NCBI RefSeq assembly: GCF_014652655.1
Contig: NZ_BMZF01000004.1
Coordinates: 31,979 to 95,978 of the forward strand
Length of the DNA stretch: 64,000 nucleotides
Reading direction: 5' to 3'
From: Paramylibacter ulvae
Lineage (GTDB): Bacteria > Pseudomonadota > Alphaproteobacteria > Rhodobacterales > Rhodobacteraceae
Shown: positions 18,633 through 23,912 of the stretch, piece by piece
Layout: each line of letters starts with the position of its first letter
How positions within the stretch are numbered: the first letter of the stretch is position 1
Program-made: the position numbers and the translations under genes
The notes under the pieces: generated by a model
Seen by the model: the letters and a program-made list of their open reading frames with translations, nothing else
Databases searched by the model: none
Told to the model about the DNA's origin: nothing

Positions 18633-19757
18633 TTATGCCTTTCTTGCCAGCTTGCCACCTGGGTGGCGCGAAATATCGCCCGTGATTTCAAGTGCGGTGA
18701 TTTGGGGGGAAACGGAATTTGTTGGCAAGCCTGTATCGCGGATCACGTCATCCTCGGAGACCGCAGAAGGGCCAAGCAGATTTAGAATCCGATCGGCAAT
18801 TTGGCGCGCAGACAGGCGCGGGATTTCAGCGGCGGGTGGTTCGGCAAACGCCATTTGCGATTGTTCGGGGCGGTCAAGTGACTCAAGGATGTCTGCACCG
18901 CTTCGGATTAATGTGGCCCCTTCGCGGATTAATATATTGCACCCTGTGGCGCGCCCATCCATGGGATTGCCGGGCACGGCCATCACCTCGCGCCCCAATT
19001 CGGCGGCGATACGTGCGGTGATTAAACTGCCTGATCTTGCGGCACCTTCCACCACAACAATGGCGGATGAAACACCCGCGATGATACGGTTGCGTTGGGG
19101 AAAATGGCGTGCCTGTGGGATTAATCCGATGGGTTGTTCGGACAGGCGCAGACCCGATTGTGCGATATCATTTGTGAGTGCGTCATTTTCTTTGGGATAA
19201 ATCACATCAAGGCCACCCGCTTGCACCGCGATTGTTCCCGTTTGCAAGCTTGCCTGATGTGCGGCGGCGTCGATACCACGCGCCAAACCCGATGCAACGC
19301 AAACGCCAGCTGCGCCCAATTCACGCGCGATATTCCCCGCAATGCGCCGCCCCAACGATGATGCGTTGCGCGCACCAACCATGGCCACGATGTCGCGTTG
19401 CCCAAGTGTGATATTTCCCTGTGCCCATAAAAATGGCGGTGCGTCGGGGGCTTCGTTTAATAGCGTTGGATAATCTGGATGACCCAGAAATAACGGGGTG
19501 AACCCCAAATGCCGCCCCGCATCATATTCGCGTTCGGCGACGCCAACGTTACAGGTTGTGTATTTTGAAACACCTGCGTCGCGCGCGATGTTTGGCAATG
19601 CGTCAAGTGCCGCATCAACCGATTCATATTCATTCAACAGACGGATGAATGTCGCGGGCCCCACCCGGCGCGATCGGGTCAGGCGCAGCCAGTTGATCTG
19701 ATCCTTCACGGATTTCGGCATGCGGTTGGGTGGTATTTTGTGGAATCGTTCGCTCAT
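18633..19757 (-). CDS. dprA: DNA-processing protein DprA
   Basis: DprA protects incoming single-stranded DNA in natural transformation and loads RecA on it. The 374-residue protein has an N-terminal SAM-like part (INWLRLTRSRRVGPATFIRLL), the Rossmann core (VGARNASSLGRRIAGNIARELG, SGLARGIDAAAH, IYPKEN, RNRIIAG) and a C-terminal winged helix (about 315-374). The start at 19757 has a poor ribosome-binding site. An ATG twelve codons in is possible but has none. Either start leaves the 5' end inside the upstream gene, so translation probably depends on coupling. It closes a six-gene overlapping operon with the five RR-signal paralogues. Confidence 0.93.
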   Translation of the reverse strand: MSERFHKIPPNRMPKSVKDQINWLRLTRSRRVGPATFIRLLNEYESVDAALDALPNIARDAGVSKYTTCNVGVAEREYDAGRHLGFTPLFLGHPDYPTLLNEAPDAPPFLWAQGNITLGQRDIVAMVGARNASSLGRRIAGNIARELGAAGVCVASGLARGIDAAAHQASLQTGTIAVQAGGLDVIYPKENDALTNDIAQSGLRLSEQPIGLIPQARHFPQRNRIIAGVSSAIVVVEGAARSGSLITARIAAELGREVMAVPGNPMDGRATGCNILIREGATLIRSGADILESLDRPEQSQMAFAEPPAAEIPRLSARQIADRILNLLGPSAVSEDDVIRDTGLPTNSVSPQITALEITGDISRHPGGKLARKA

Positions 19758-20217
19758 GTTCTGACTGTGTCACCTGATGGTTAACAGAGTTTGAATCATT
19801 TGATTCAATTTCACCCGCTTCATCATCATTCAACATTTTTTCAGCACGTTCGCGCAGATTGGATTTCAACGAAGCCTGATCGGTATTTTGGGAATACAGG
19901 TTCGCAACACGTTCAGCCGAACGCCCGAATGGTTTCAGTGTTTTACTGACCCCCAGCGCATCCGGCATCGTAATGACGTTTTCCTTAAGCAGCACATCAT
20001 AGACATGTTGTGCCATTTCATCGGTTAGCGCCAATTGGCGTTTGAACATGGCTGGGGATGCTTTGTCATGGATGCGCGCCGTGAATGCGGCCCAGCTATA
20101 CGGGTGTTGAAACATATGAAGCGGCGTTGTCGTCGCGGTTTTTGCAAGTGCTGCGGCGGGGATTGCGGGCGCGCTGATCAATGCGGCGAGCGATTGGGTG
20201 AATTGACGACGGTTCAT
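19630..20217 (-). CDS. RR-signal array protein A (fifth paralogue)
   Basis: Unrecognised family. The 195-residue product starts MNRRQFTQSLAALISAPAIPAAALA, a twin-arginine-type signal. The shared core follows: FTARIHDKASPAMFKRQL, a helical stretch, then LLKENVITMPDALGVSKTL. The C-terminal tail is acidic and Asn/Gln-rich. The last 43 codons overlap the start of dprA by 128 bases in a different frame. Without that part the protein would be about 152 residues, close to its sisters (137-146), so the tail may have arisen by loss of an earlier stop. Its ATG overlaps the stop of the preceding paralogue as ATGA. Confidence 0.75.
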   Translation of the reverse strand: MNRRQFTQSLAALISAPAIPAAALAKTATTTPLHMFQHPYSWAAFTARIHDKASPAMFKRQLALTDEMAQHVYDVLLKENVITMPDALGVSKTLKPFGRSAERVANLYSQNTDQASLKSNLRERAEKMLNDDEAGEIESNDSNSVNHQVTQSEHERTIPQNTTQPHAEIREGSDQLAAPDPIAPGGARDIHPSVE

Positions 20218-20627
20218 ATGGTTGGTTCCTGTGGCAACGCAGTTTTGGTTCCATCCTCGTCCGCGATGATGCGATTTGCCAGTTTTTTAACATTGGTGGT
20301 GTCGAAATTTAGACTGGTTCGATTCATGGTGGCAATATCGGGGCGGATGGTTTGATACACGCCTTGGGCATTTGCGGCGGTGACTACGTTGGTTTTAACC
20401 AGATGCCGCATCACGTCTTGTGCCAGTGGTTGGGGAATTTGCAAGATAGAGGTCAGCGTTTTGGCGGTGATGTCTGGGCGTGCCTGCGCAATGCCGCGCC
20501 CCCATAAATGTGCATATTGTGCCGATTTCGCACCGAGCGTTTTTGTTACGCCTGACGGTGTCGCAATTGATATGTTTGGCATAACAGCAGCTGCGCCAAG
20601 TGCGAGTGTGAATTGACGCCGGTTCAT
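20214..20627 (-). CDS. RR-signal array protein B (fourth paralogue)
   Basis: Unrecognised family. The 137 residues begin MNRRQFTLALGAAAVMPNISIA (RR signal). The core aligns by eye with the sister genes: YAHLWGRGIAQARPDITAKTLTSIL, then MRHLVKTNVVTAANAQGVYQTIRPD. It is the shortest copy and has no cysteine. It joins its neighbours by four-base ATGA overlaps at both ends. Confidence 0.75.
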   Translation of the reverse strand: MNRRQFTLALGAAAVMPNISIATPSGVTKTLGAKSAQYAHLWGRGIAQARPDITAKTLTSILQIPQPLAQDVMRHLVKTNVVTAANAQGVYQTIRPDIATMNRTSLNFDTTNVKKLANRIIADEDGTKTALPQEPTI

Positions 20628-21064
20628 GATGTTTCCTCAGGTGTTGATTGCGCTGTTTCCTGTGGATCTGTTTCCACGGGTTCATCAATGATACGTTCAA
20701 TCGTGGATCTGATATCTGGTTTTTTGACGATGTTGGAAACGGTCACCGCGCTTTGTTGTGCGACGCGCAATGCGGCATCGGACAATTTCCAATAGGGCGC
20801 AATGGCGCGTACAAAACCGTTTTCATCGGGAACTGAAATCACATTTTGTGATTGCAATTTGGCAATGATGGATAGTGTTTCATCCTCTGTCGTGTTGAGC
20901 ACACCCATAAACATTTCAGGTGCGGCACGATCCCAGAGGTTTGCGTAGTACACCGCGCGTTCATACAGATTGGATTGCGTAAGCCCGCCCAACCCAAATG
21001 TGAGCGGTTTGATCGGTGCGGATGCGATGGCGCCAAGGCCTTGTGTGAATTGGCGACGGTTCAT
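20624..21064 (-). CDS. RR-signal array protein C (third paralogue)
   Basis: Unrecognised family. The 146 residues begin MNRRQFTQGLGAIASAPIKP (RR signal). The core shows YANLWDRAAPEMFMGVLNTTEDET, then LQSQNVISVPDENGFVRAIAPYW. A helical region and an acidic Thr/Glu-rich tail follow. It is linked to both neighbours by four-base overlaps. No catalytic motif or metal site is apparent. Confidence 0.75.
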   Translation of the reverse strand: MNRRQFTQGLGAIASAPIKPLTFGLGGLTQSNLYERAVYYANLWDRAAPEMFMGVLNTTEDETLSIIAKLQSQNVISVPDENGFVRAIAPYWKLSDAALRVAQQSAVTVSNIVKKPDIRSTIERIIDEPVETDPQETAQSTPEETS

Positions 21065-21729
21065 AACATTGGTTCCTGATCTGAAAGGGTGTGTGGTGAT
21101 TGATCACCAAGTACAGTGGCGTTTGCGTGATCGCGCAGCGTTGTTTCAGCGTCGGCAGTTTGTGCAAACAGATGACAAATGGATGTTCCGTTGTGAATGT
21201 AAAACCCCACAGGCGCACCAATGGCACCGATGACGATAGTGTTGGCAAGTTCGGTATGAAGGTATGTATTGATGTCTTCGCAAGGTTGATCTGAGTTTTG
21301 TTCCCAGATTTCCGCGAGCGCTGGTATATCGTCTTGGACAGCGTTGCGTGGTTGTTCGTGGGGTTGTGGGGTGTTTGTCGTATTTGTGCGTTTGGCTTGC
21401 TGTTTTGGTTCAACTGTTTTTGACGCGGCATGTGGAATGGATTTTGGTTGGCGTGCGACCAAGTTGGGGTGGGCAGCACCACTGGCGGTGAGGTAATTTT
21501 CAGCGATCAGTTGTGCGTGAATGAGTTTTGCTGTGCTTTGATCAATGCGCAAAAAAGGCGCGAGCATTTGTGGGCTACAGACCTTGTGCATACGCGTAAG
21601 ATAATCCGCCCAGCAATAGGCCATGCTGGGCACCGCAGTTTGTGCAACAGGTGTCGCCAATGCTGCCGTTGGCAATGCGGGTGCAGCGAAAAGGGCGGCG
21701 ATGGATTGGGAGAATTGGCGCCTATTCAT
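21061..21729 (-). CDS. RR-signal array protein D (second paralogue, enlarged)
   Basis: Unrecognised family. The real start is ATG 21729, giving 222 residues beginning MNRRQFSQSIAALFAAPALP (RR signal). An in-frame ATG further upstream (21831) lies wholly within paralogue E and has no signal. The core reads WADYLTRMHKVCSPQMLAPFL and AQLIAENYLTASGA. Unlike its sisters it has a polar linker and an extra C-terminal segment (about 160-205) with ELANTIVIGAIGAPVGFYIHNG and four cysteines in all. It overlaps paralogue E by eight bases and C by four. Confidence 0.75.
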   Translation of the reverse strand: MNRRQFSQSIAALFAAPALPTAALATPVAQTAVPSMAYCWADYLTRMHKVCSPQMLAPFLRIDQSTAKLIHAQLIAENYLTASGAAHPNLVARQPKSIPHAASKTVEPKQQAKRTNTTNTPQPHEQPRNAVQDDIPALAEIWEQNSDQPCEDINTYLHTELANTIVIGAIGAPVGFYIHNGTSICHLFAQTADAETTLRDHANATVLGDQSPHTLSDQEPML

Positions 21730-22162
21730 CTGTTTCAGGCTCTTTGATCGGTTCAACCGAAATGTCGCACTCGTCAAAATGGTGTTTGATCTGTGAAAGC
21801 GATTTTCGTGCGTCGGGCTGTTTGGCCGCAATGTTTTGAATTGGCGCAGGTGTGTCGAAATAATCTATCGCCTTGAACACGCCCTGCGCATTTGCCGGCG
21901 CGATGACATTTGTTTTGATCAGATGTTGCATCAAGTCTGTCGCGACATCGGGTGGAAATGAATAATTATGGATGAATGTTTCGAGCGTCAGATTATCGTG
22001 AATACGTGCGGCAAATCCCGCCATCCCATATGCATCGAGCCCTGTTTTGGCAACGTAGGCCGCAGCGGGTGATGTGCCCATTGCACCGATGGCAAAGCGC
22101 GTGGGCGCGGCAAGTGCGCCACCCGTGGCGAGGATGGATTGTGTAAATTGGCGTCTGTTCAT
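21722..22162 (-). CDS. RR-signal array protein E (first paralogue)
   Basis: Unrecognised family. This is the first gene of the operon. The 146 residues begin MNRRQFTQSILATGGALAAP (RR signal). The core reads GFAARIHDNLTLETFIHNYSF, then MQHLIKTNVIAPANAQGVFKAIDYF, closest to copies A and B. The gene has no Shine-Dalgarno, and a TATAAT box lies only five bases before its ATG, which suggests leaderless translation. The tail is acidic. Confidence 0.75.
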   Translation of the reverse strand: MNRRQFTQSILATGGALAAPTRFAIGAMGTSPAAAYVAKTGLDAYGMAGFAARIHDNLTLETFIHNYSFPPDVATDLMQHLIKTNVIAPANAQGVFKAIDYFDTPAPIQNIAAKQPDARKSLSQIKHHFDECDISVEPIKEPETDE

Positions 22163-22208
22163 GCCATATTATATAGGGCGTGACCACCAAATTGCGAGTC
22201 ATTCGCAA
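22163..22208 (-). promoter_or_regulatory. Promoter and palindrome of the RR-array/dprA operon
   Basis: On the minus strand TATAAT occupies 22173-22168, five bases before the first ATG, so the transcript would start at or near that ATG. The 17-bp palindrome TTGCGAGTCATTCGCAA (22192-22208; 6-bp arms, 5-bp centre) covers the expected -35 position. This looks like an operator for an unidentified regulator. Confidence 0.5.
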
Positions 22209-22308: not shown

Positions 22309-23736
22309 TTAAGTTTGTGAGCCACCCACGGTGAGCCCACCGATCAACAATGTTGGCTGACCAACGCCCACGGGCACCCATTGACCCGCCTTGCCACAAT
22401 TACCCATGCCGGGGTCAAGTGCCATATCGTTGCCAATGGCGCGGATATGTTTCAGGGCGGTTGCCCCATCGCCGATTAGTGTTGCCCCTTTGACGGGTGC
22501 GCCGATTTTACCGTTTTTGACACGGTAAGCCTCGGTACAGGAAAACACGAATTTTCCGTTGGTGATATCGACCTGACCACCGCCAAACCCAACGGCATAT
22601 ATACCATCTTTAATGTCGGCAACGATTTCAGAAGGATCCGCATTGCCGCCTTCCATATAGGTGTTGGTCATGCGCGGCATTGGGGCATGCGCATAGCTTT
22701 CGCGTCGTCCATTGCCCGTGGGGGCGACACCCATCAAGCGTGCATTTTGACGATCTTGCATATAGCCGACCAGAATACCGTCTTCGATCAGGGTGTTTTT
22801 TTGTGATTGTGTGCCTTCGTCATCAAAGCTGATGGAGCCGCGACGATCAGGGATTGTGCCATCGTCCAGAACGGTGACACCTTTGGCGGCGACTTGTTTC
22901 CCCATCAGCCCCGCAAAGGCAGAGGTTTTTTTGCGGTTAAAATCGCCTTCTAGTCCGTGGCCGACAGCCTCGTGTAGCAAGATACCCGGCCAGCCATTGC
23001 CAAGGGCTACGTCAAACACACCTGCGGGGGCAGGTTCGGCATCAAGATTAACAAGCGCGATGCGCAATGCCTCTTTCGCGGTTTTTTGCCAGTGATCAGA
23101 TTGCAAAAGTGGGGAAAGCAAATAGCGGCCACCGCCTCCTGCGGATCCGCTTTCGCGCCGCCCGTTTTGTTCAACAATGACGCTGACGTTTAGGCGGGTC
23201 ATCGGGCGCACATCGCGCAAAATTGTACCCTCGGGTCGCATGATTTCAACCTCTTGTAGGCTGGCGGCGATTGTCGCGCTGACCTGTACCACGCGTTTAT
23301 CGAGGGTTCGGGTGAAATCGTCGATCTCTTTCAGGGTTTCGATTTTGACAGAAAATTCTGCATCGGCCATTGGATCGGCATCGGTGTAAAGGCGTTGATT
23401 GGTTGCCTGTGGTGCGCTTGCAAGGGTGGCACCACCCGCGCCAACCGCGAGGCGAGCAGTTTCAGCGGCGCGTTTCAGTGCGGATTCGGTCATTGTTGTG
23501 GAATGGGCATAACCCGCAGTTTCACCGCGCACGGCGCGAAGGCCAAAACCCTCTGACGCGTTGTAGCTGGCGTTTTTGAGACGGCCATCATCGAATACCA
23601 ATGCCTCTGATTTACGCCGTTCCAGAAATAATTCCCCATCATCGGCACCCGCTACTGCGTTTTGCAGAGTTTTTAGGGCAGCTTTTTCGTCGATATCGGT
23701 TTCAAACGGGCGAAAGGGCGCTGTTTGGTTGTTCAT
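22309..23736 (-). CDS. tldD: Metalloprotease TldD
   Basis: TldD works with TldE/PmbA as a zinc protease that trims unfolded peptides, such as microcin B17 precursor or the CcdA antitoxin. The 475-residue protein has the HEAVGHGLEGDFNRK motif, with the HExxxH metal site in the C-terminal half, and the family end GQPTLLIGGLTVGG. I chose ATG 23736 (MNNQTAPFRPFETD), preceded by GGACAG. The frame stays open ten codons further upstream without a site. Its 3' end faces the RR array in the same direction, but that array has its own promoter. Confidence 0.94.
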   Translation of the reverse strand: MNNQTAPFRPFETDIDEKAALKTLQNAVAGADDGELFLERRKSEALVFDDGRLKNASYNASEGFGLRAVRGETAGYAHSTTMTESALKRAAETARLAVGAGGATLASAPQATNQRLYTDADPMADAEFSVKIETLKEIDDFTRTLDKRVVQVSATIAASLQEVEIMRPEGTILRDVRPMTRLNVSVIVEQNGRRESGSAGGGGRYLLSPLLQSDHWQKTAKEALRIALVNLDAEPAPAGVFDVALGNGWPGILLHEAVGHGLEGDFNRKKTSAFAGLMGKQVAAKGVTVLDDGTIPDRRGSISFDDEGTQSQKNTLIEDGILVGYMQDRQNARLMGVAPTGNGRRESYAHAPMPRMTNTYMEGGNADPSEIVADIKDGIYAVGFGGGQVDITNGKFVFSCTEAYRVKNGKIGAPVKGATLIGDGATALKHIRAIGNDMALDPGMGNCGKAGQWVPVGVGQPTLLIGGLTVGGSQT

Positions 23737-23912
23737 TTGTGCTGTCCTTTTGATAAATCTGTCCAAAAGCGGCTGAATGCCGCAAAGGGAATACTTGTTC
23801 TTTTGCCCTTATTATGGTTTTTCAGGCCAAGGAAACAACTGGGGATTCTCTTGTTACATTGTAAGAGCCCCGAAAAATGGCTAAAACAGCCAAGAATGAC
23901 AGGATCGGACGC

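Follow-up and report, generated by a model that had tools for sequence, protein, structure and literature searches.

Within the chromosome motor FtsK, the γ domain is known to be the end that reads DNA. In Escherichia coli, its residues R1300, E1303 and E1306 contribute to the reading of FtsK orienting polar sequences (KOPS), as described in a passage of PMC2680272, and a contact list in PMC5052618 gives the residues through which γ meets XerD. Here, we describe an array of five small genes of Paramylibacter ulvae, located in a window of 64,000 nucleotides (contig NZ_BMZF01000004.1, positions 31,979 to 95,978), whose products combine a leader predicted to direct twin-arginine translocation (Tat) with a core predicted to derive from this winged-helix domain. 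A literature search over open-licence papers yielded no paper joining FtsK γ with Tat, export, orphan copies or Rhodobacteraceae. Our preferred explanation, held tentatively at a probability of roughly 0.46, is that the genes form a metal-regulated, operon-like array of Tat-exported proteins with a KOPS-blind FtsK γ fold, likely serving an envelope role during manganese or iron shortage.

The array consists of five minus-strand open reading frames (ORFs) between tldD and dprA, the translations of which all start with MNRRQF(T/S). Consecutive genes overlap by 8, 4, 4 and 4 bases and gene 5 runs 128 bases into dprA, exactly as the initial annotation, made from the sequence alone, had described. 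The start of gene 2 was corrected to the ATG at 21729, in place of the TTG of the longer listed frame. In window coordinates, the features are the following.

22309..23766, minus strand: tldD, upstream neighbour bounding the slot (NCBIfam NF008006 above cut-off)
22192..22208, minus strand: 17-base inverted repeat TTGCGAATGACTCGCAA, probably the operator of the array and identical to the copy before sitA in the same genome
22168..22173, minus strand: TATAAT just 5′ of the gene 1 ATG, candidate -10 element of a leaderless transcript (from the sequence; not listed by the promoter scan)
21722..22162, minus strand: array gene 1, RR leader, predicted winged-helix core and short tail, 146 aa (ORF; core profile E 2.7e-10; dN/dS 0.18)
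21851..22030, minus strand: predicted winged-helix core of gene 1 (core alignment and profile)
21061..21729, minus strand: array gene 2, RR leader, predicted winged-helix core and GNAT remnant, 222 aa (translation; core E 4e-21)
21430..21618, minus strand: predicted winged-helix core of gene 2 (core alignment and profile)
21160..21333, minus strand: GNAT remnant within gene 2, with approximate limits drawn by eye (similar to the beginning of the GNAT portion in L043, L046 and L048)
20624..21064, minus strand: array gene 3, RR leader, predicted winged-helix core and tail, 146 aa (ORF; core E 1.4e-11; dN/dS 0.13)
20786..20965, minus strand: predicted winged-helix core of gene 3 (core alignment and profile)
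20214..20627, minus strand: array gene 4, RR leader and predicted winged-helix core, 137 aa (ORF; core E 9.4e-12; dN/dS 0.16)
20331..20510, minus strand: predicted winged-helix core of gene 4 (core alignment and profile)
19630..20217, minus strand: array gene 5, adjoining dprA, RR leader, predicted winged-helix core and long low-confidence tail, 195 aa (ORF; core E 2.4e-22; AlphaFold)
19921..20100, minus strand: predicted winged-helix core of gene 5 (alignment, profile, AlphaFold model and fold comparison)
18633..19757, minus strand: dprA, downstream neighbour (Pfam DNA_processg_A, DprA_N and DprA_WH)

All five genes recur in genome G020 with their order unchanged. Against these orthologues, the dN/dS values of genes 1–5 were 0.18, 0.13, 0.13, 0.16 and 0.26, respectively, and those of dprA, tldD and topA 0.05, 0.02 and 0.03. 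Since values of 0.13–0.26 indicate purifying selection, the array frames look translated and kept. Identity to the G020 orthologues amounts to 73–93% in the core, 67–97% in the leader and 35–63% in the tail (72% in the tail of a further copy beside dsbB), making the tails the least conserved part of the proteins (35–72%). Paramylibacter ulvae is a near relative of Amylibacter kogurei, a protein of which shares 79% identity with the product of gene 5. A conserved motif near the end of gene 5 was dropped as evidence because, judged by eye, it partly follows from the overlapping dprA frame.

The common core that had been proposed for the five products was borne out by a profile built from other genomes. 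This profile of 31 cores, from which the rows of the window, L034, L035 and L036 were excluded, matched the five window cores with E values from 2.4e-22 to 2.7e-10, whereas the best of 1000 shuffled cores reached 0.26. In the AlphaFold model of gene 5, residues 41–90 have a block pLDDT (predicted local distance difference test) of 91–96, with a long tail of low confidence, and fold comparison of this model gave a winged-helix fold with γ of FtsK as the nearest solved structure. Sequence and model together argue strongly for a relation, and the core is predicted to descend from the FtsK γ domain (PF09397; PDB 2ve8, 2ve9, 2j5o, 2j5p). Both share the winged helix, 50 ungapped columns in register, common hydrophobic positions and a cysteine at one place in 18 of 43 family cores and 9 of 21 FtsK γ domains; here and below, counts refer to a family collection of first 43 and then 70 members. 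The comparison with other winged helices is based on Pfam and fold searches only. The initial statement that no known family is recognisable stands for the whole proteins, as no Pfam or NCBIfam family is over its cut-off in any of the five, but not for the core, which appears as an FtsK-γ-like winged helix. Weak whole-protein matches to TIGR04423 (E 0.0039), PdxR (E 0.013), TrmB (E 0.018), DUF4840 (E 0.019), and DUF771 and SARA (E 0.16–0.19) were treated as chance or generic helix-turn-helix signal.

The residues by which γ reads DNA are lost from the family. R1300, E1303 and E1306, which correspond to core positions 32, 35 and 38 via the 2j5p sequence with numbering counted by hand, are kept by residue class in only 3, 7 and 0 of 43 cores, respectively, and no core keeps two or more of the three, while in all 21 FtsK proteins of relatives the residue class is kept at each of these positions. 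K51 and R52, directly after the invariant glycine, are kept in 0/43 and 1/43 cores. Likewise, the residue class of the XerD contacts Q1288, R1289, R1292, G1294 and N1296 is found in 5, 19, 15, 0 and 1 of 43 cores. As the KOPS-reading and most XerD-contact residues are gone, these proteins look like γ but should not work as γ. Frequent instead are W3 (24/43), R9 (25/43) and H11 (29/43), which make up the motif noticed in the first inspection. The family also differs from FtsK in having no motor, an RR leader standing in its place; at 137–222 aa and with no ATPase motor domain, the window proteins differ from FtsK/SpoIIIE translocases. A γ-like domain outside FtsK was also seen in L171:1165-2238 (minus strand), a 358-aa frame from an alphaproteobacterium of a different family with a GapR domain (E 3.8e-33) and an FtsK γ domain of 36.2 bits, over the cut-off; unlike in the array, γ is joined there to the GapR DNA-binding domain.

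In the leader, RR is present in 69 and RRxF in 67 of 70 members, residues 9–20 are uncharged in 62/70 with a moderate median peak hydropathy of 1.57, and an AxA-like site, weak as an indication given the composition, occurs in 70/70. Because of the near-universal RRxF and the presence of a TatC gene in the genome, Tat export is likely, a prediction for which the leader sequences provide good evidence. Together with the core profiles, this leader survey supports the earlier view of the genes as predicted-exported paralogues with a common core. The family thus resembles the Tat substrates modelled by PF10518 and TIGR01409 in its RRxF, its mostly uncharged h-region and its AxA-like end, and differs from them in its cargo, a tiny predicted winged helix with no enzyme domain recognised, and in that the models match a minority of members.

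Upstream of gene 1 lies the inverted repeat TTGCGAATGACTCGCAA, which is unchanged in G020 despite differing flanks. One other exact copy exists in the genome, at C6:31452-31468, immediately upstream of the metal ABC importer genes sitA-sitB. The sit ATPase passes the cut-off of NF011630, the model for manganese/iron ABC transporter ATP-binding proteins, and the substrate-binding protein scores with manganese/iron and zinc families, all below their cut-offs. A second repeat site with 3 mismatches adjoins the exact copy before sitA and presumably resembles a Fur box. On the same contig, the sit operon with its two repeat sites is close to znuB-like, znuC and Zur-like genes (L191:5453-10996).

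When the 300 bases before each gene were searched with at most 3 mismatches, the repeat was found before the first family gene at 12/12 testable tldD-dprA slots, beginning 45–46 bases from the gene start in eight of them and at 65 or 77 in the others. It was found at 0/23 internal family genes, at 0/14 same-genus slots without the family (one of which, L153, has a 4-mismatch version before dprA) and in 22 of 2992 random stretches of the same loci, true sites included. The L048 fusion gene, with just 18 bases available upstream, was left out of this count. A Marinosulfonomonas locus fetched after the motif had been defined carries the repeat at 45 bases with 3 mismatches. Scanning the genus with at most 2 mismatches gave 28 sites in 17 of 33 genomes, compared with 8 hits for a reversed control pattern in the same genomes. 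Nine of these sites precede family arrays and seven precede sitA; among the 12 others, nine are inside stop-to-stop frames of at least 200 aa (one of them, L198, also 22 bases before an ATG), two have no nearby frame start, and one (L219) is 25 bases before an unidentified frame. Taken at the sequence level, the evidence for a repeat shared by the array and sitA is strong.

In Rhodobacter sphaeroides, Mur, a regulator of the Fur family, is predicted to target the region upstream of sitA (PMC3413700). Because of this and of its place before sitA here, we call the repeat a Mur-type box. Like sitABC/sitABCD under such a box in alphaproteobacteria, the array has an identical or near-identical inverted repeat upstream, although it encodes no transporter, and we infer that a Mur-type regulator may control the array together with sitABC. 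The TATAAT ends five bases before the gene 1 ATG and the repeat sits at the -35 place, an arrangement that would fit both a repressor and a transcript without a leader.

As the same repeat precedes gene 1 and sitA-sitB, metal shortage probably turns on the array. In the explanation that we favour, a Fur-family regulator of the Mur type would repress the array while manganese and iron are plentiful. In shortage, the array proteins would fold in the cytoplasm and then pass through Tat, and in the periplasm their winged-helix face, blind to KOPS, would bind envelope partner proteins, with a partner that would differ among array members; dprA, at the 3′ end, would be co-expressed with the array. 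That the proteins act biochemically as envelope adaptors is only weakly indicated. If true, a family that keeps the γ fold, loses the reading residues and gains an export leader would be a rare reuse of a nucleoid domain in the envelope. The shared repeat furthermore names the condition under which to look, manganese or iron shortage, which makes the function testable, and leads to the prediction that dprA comes under metal control solely in array-bearing species.

In four genomes, which belong to two genera (L043, L046 and L048; L049), an intact GNAT acetyltransferase domain is joined to leader and core, each time in the dprA slot. Gene 2 is 43–47% identical to the fusions of L043, L046 and L048; no GNAT match was found in it (at E≤1) or in its G020 orthologue, so that its GNAT half, as read from the sequence, has decayed. 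In all four fusions an in-frame ATG directly precedes the GNAT part, making a separate cytoplasmic GNAT possible. A stand-alone GNAT gene lies upstream of the family gene in G032 (L052), and a GNAT-like gene on its own, judged by eye, was seen in six slots without the family.

Several observations weigh against the preferred explanation. A GNAT domain requires acetyl-CoA, of which there is none in the periplasm, and the intact GNAT fusions therefore speak against export of those forms. The curated Tat models match 10/37 (PF10518, E≤5) and 3/49 (TIGR01409, E≤0.1). With Pfam FtsK_gamma (PF09397), the core of gene 5 reaches 11.8 bits, below the cut-off of 30.6, and a Pfam scan of the five whole window proteins gave no FtsK_gamma match at E≤1. 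In Foldseek, a Bacillus regulator occupies the first row and γ the second, the rows of FtsK γ have MarR-type chains among them, and all E values exceed 0.001; VIA rows at most 1 apart were treated as ties, and just the two top rows stand clear. The cores are slightly basic, with a median charge of +3 compared with +1 in FtsK γ, which leaves DNA binding without KOPS specificity possible. Finally, the regulator is a candidate named from sitA, and the repeat, tied to the tldD-dprA slot, is present at only one of 34 first genes outside it; with 33/34 lacking it, metal control is no family-wide property.

Alternatively, the proteins might stay inside the cell as winged-helix regulators or Xer/FtsK modulators, either in the cytoplasm or tethered to the membrane, with the RR segment serving as an anchor. 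Winged-helix folds are usually cytoplasmic, and the acetyl-CoA requirement of the GNAT fusions points the same way. In addition, the XerD contact R1289 of the PMC5052618 list is R or K in 19/43 cores. However, Q1288, R1289 and R1292 occur jointly in just 5/43 cores and G1294 in none, and the persistence of RRxF in diverged members, with the uncharged stretch and, weakly, the AxA-like site behind it, is at odds with a mere anchor. We consider this possibility unlikely, yet the best surviving of the alternatives.

Tat substrates fold in the cytoplasm, and Tat export offers a way to load metal before export. The array products might accordingly be metal-binding carriers that take up manganese or iron in the cytoplasm and, once in the periplasm, hand the metal to enzymes or act as a buffer for it. 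The repeat shared with sitA-sitB would suit such carriers, as would a histidine at core position 11 (29/43), a cysteine at position 14 (18/43) and the acidic post-leader parts of four of the five window products. In contrast, metal ligands conserved as a group of at least three were not seen, and the core histidine is present in just three of the five window cores. This reading is also improbable, ranking second among the alternatives.

The distribution of the family bears on the role in transformation that had been suggested from the coupling to dprA. Three of the genome searches described below (that with a 49-sequence profile, that listing 40 genomes and the class-wide one) scored at most 12 or 13 candidates per genome, which makes their counts of family-bearing genomes minimum values. 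The first profile found a sixth copy in the same genome as the window, beside dsbB, and further copies among relatives (13 of 61 genomes). Of 295 Rhodobacteraceae genomes, sampled at close to one per genus, at least 19 matched the 49-sequence profile at E≤1e-6; as the G271 match, core only with internal stops, is probably no member, this becomes at least about 18. Another search listed 40 genomes at E≤0.001, of which 22 with weak matches, mostly leader or core alone and only partly inspected individually, were not counted. Within the genus of the window, 14 of 33 genomes match, and 11 have the family after removal of G008, G009 and G016, whose matches are leader-only or decayed. The decayed copy of G016 (C2:1065024-1065191), next to dprA, has leader and part of the core with two internal stops and suggests family loss in that genome. 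Up to nine copies occur per genome (G019), singly or arrayed, with six in the G019 array and four in tandem in G088. A class-wide search matched at least 72 of 289 genomes at E≤1e-5; among the matches listed, G000 excepted, 0/71 begin before model position 12, so that the RR motif is outside all of them, and most belong to frames of 700–1100 aa. In the searches run, the family is seen only in Rhodobacteraceae plus two loci (L227, L228) in metagenome-assembled genomes labelled 'Rhizobiaceae group', a placement taken from the label. A phage or plasmid origin was set aside, as the gene 1 product has no confirmed relative in IMG/VR viral contigs and the gene 5 leader and core none in PLSDB plasmids.

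Within Rhodobacteraceae, the family is sparse and spread over many loci, dprA being one neighbour among them. In 11/11 same-genus genomes with the family, the gene directly 5′ of dprA is a family member, but of the 46 first genes whose upstream DNA was testable, 34 are found at places other than the tldD-dprA slot, in the inspected cases next to unrelated housekeeping genes. Neighbours at other loci include isocitrate lyase, rplO-secY, an S1-domain protein, PNPase, PMSR, ArgJ and an aconitase C-terminal domain, and no common partner gene was seen across the loci, part of whose neighbours are annotated. The DprA link is thus real as a neighbourhood and fails as a family-wide rule.

These counts also bear on a reading in which the products are exported DNA-binding proteins aiding DNA uptake or gene transfer agent (GTA) reception with DprA, holding incoming DNA in the periplasm with no sequence preference. 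Besides the same-genus genomes, the place directly before dprA is taken by a family gene in two other genera (L049, L118), 0/8 same-genus genomes without a dprA match hold the family (P 0.023, ignoring kinship), comEC is present and the cores are slightly basic. Against this stand the many first genes outside the slot, the loss of the KOPS-reading residues and the finding that slots bear the metal-type repeat only when they also contain the family. The suggested transformation role, weakly indicated by the neighbourhood alone, loses further ground because the upstream repeat points to manganese/iron control instead, and we hold this third alternative to be doubtful. In Dinoroseobacter, of the same bacterial family, vesicle DNA is enriched for the dif site and the vesicles are enriched in FtsK, and in a passage of PMC7901474 its authors hypothesise that the vesicle DNA passes through the periplasm. 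The least probable reading, that Rhodobacteraceae have placed a copy of FtsK γ outside the cell, as Tat-exported KOPS-blind proteins that are made with DprA upon manganese or iron starvation and handle periplasmic DNA, would, if true, mean that metal shortage turns on an envelope DNA-handling programme for uptake or vesicle DNA.

The family tree, with 70 rows and few columns, has many open forks. Gene 2 groups with the GNAT fusions and gene 4 with a G019 gene, both starred, whereas gene 3 has a G025 gene as its closest row (not starred) and gene 1 joins gene 4 and its G019 partner at 94/82, not starred and without strong support. By tree path, gene 5 is nearest to the dprA-proximal genes of G019 and G022. 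Since genes 2–5 are nearest, after their G020 orthologues, to genes of other species outside the G000/G020 pair, the paralogues are probably mostly older than these species, and the repeated local duplication once proposed would have to be old.

At the dsbB locus, the family copy and dsbB lie tail to tail with an 84-base overlap, downstream of an HNH gene (L034:6853-7287 and L034:6409-6936). Other same-genus loci have a frame of the same size in the place of dsbB, judged by size, and these copies group in the tree. A DNA-repair neighbourhood, considered because of HNH endonuclease and HhH-GPD genes at this copy, was rejected as other loci differ. In G022 (L164/L166, G022:C1:778841-779957), dprA is matched as two slightly overlapping pieces, broken or misassembled, beside an intact family array. 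By eye, L122, L131, L137 and L138 form a divergent subfamily with a cysteine tail motif (like C...GMT..PRC) absent from the other members printed. Copies near the ribosomal protein L15 (rplO) and secY genes occur in two genomes (L042:835-1224 and L047:7282-7713).

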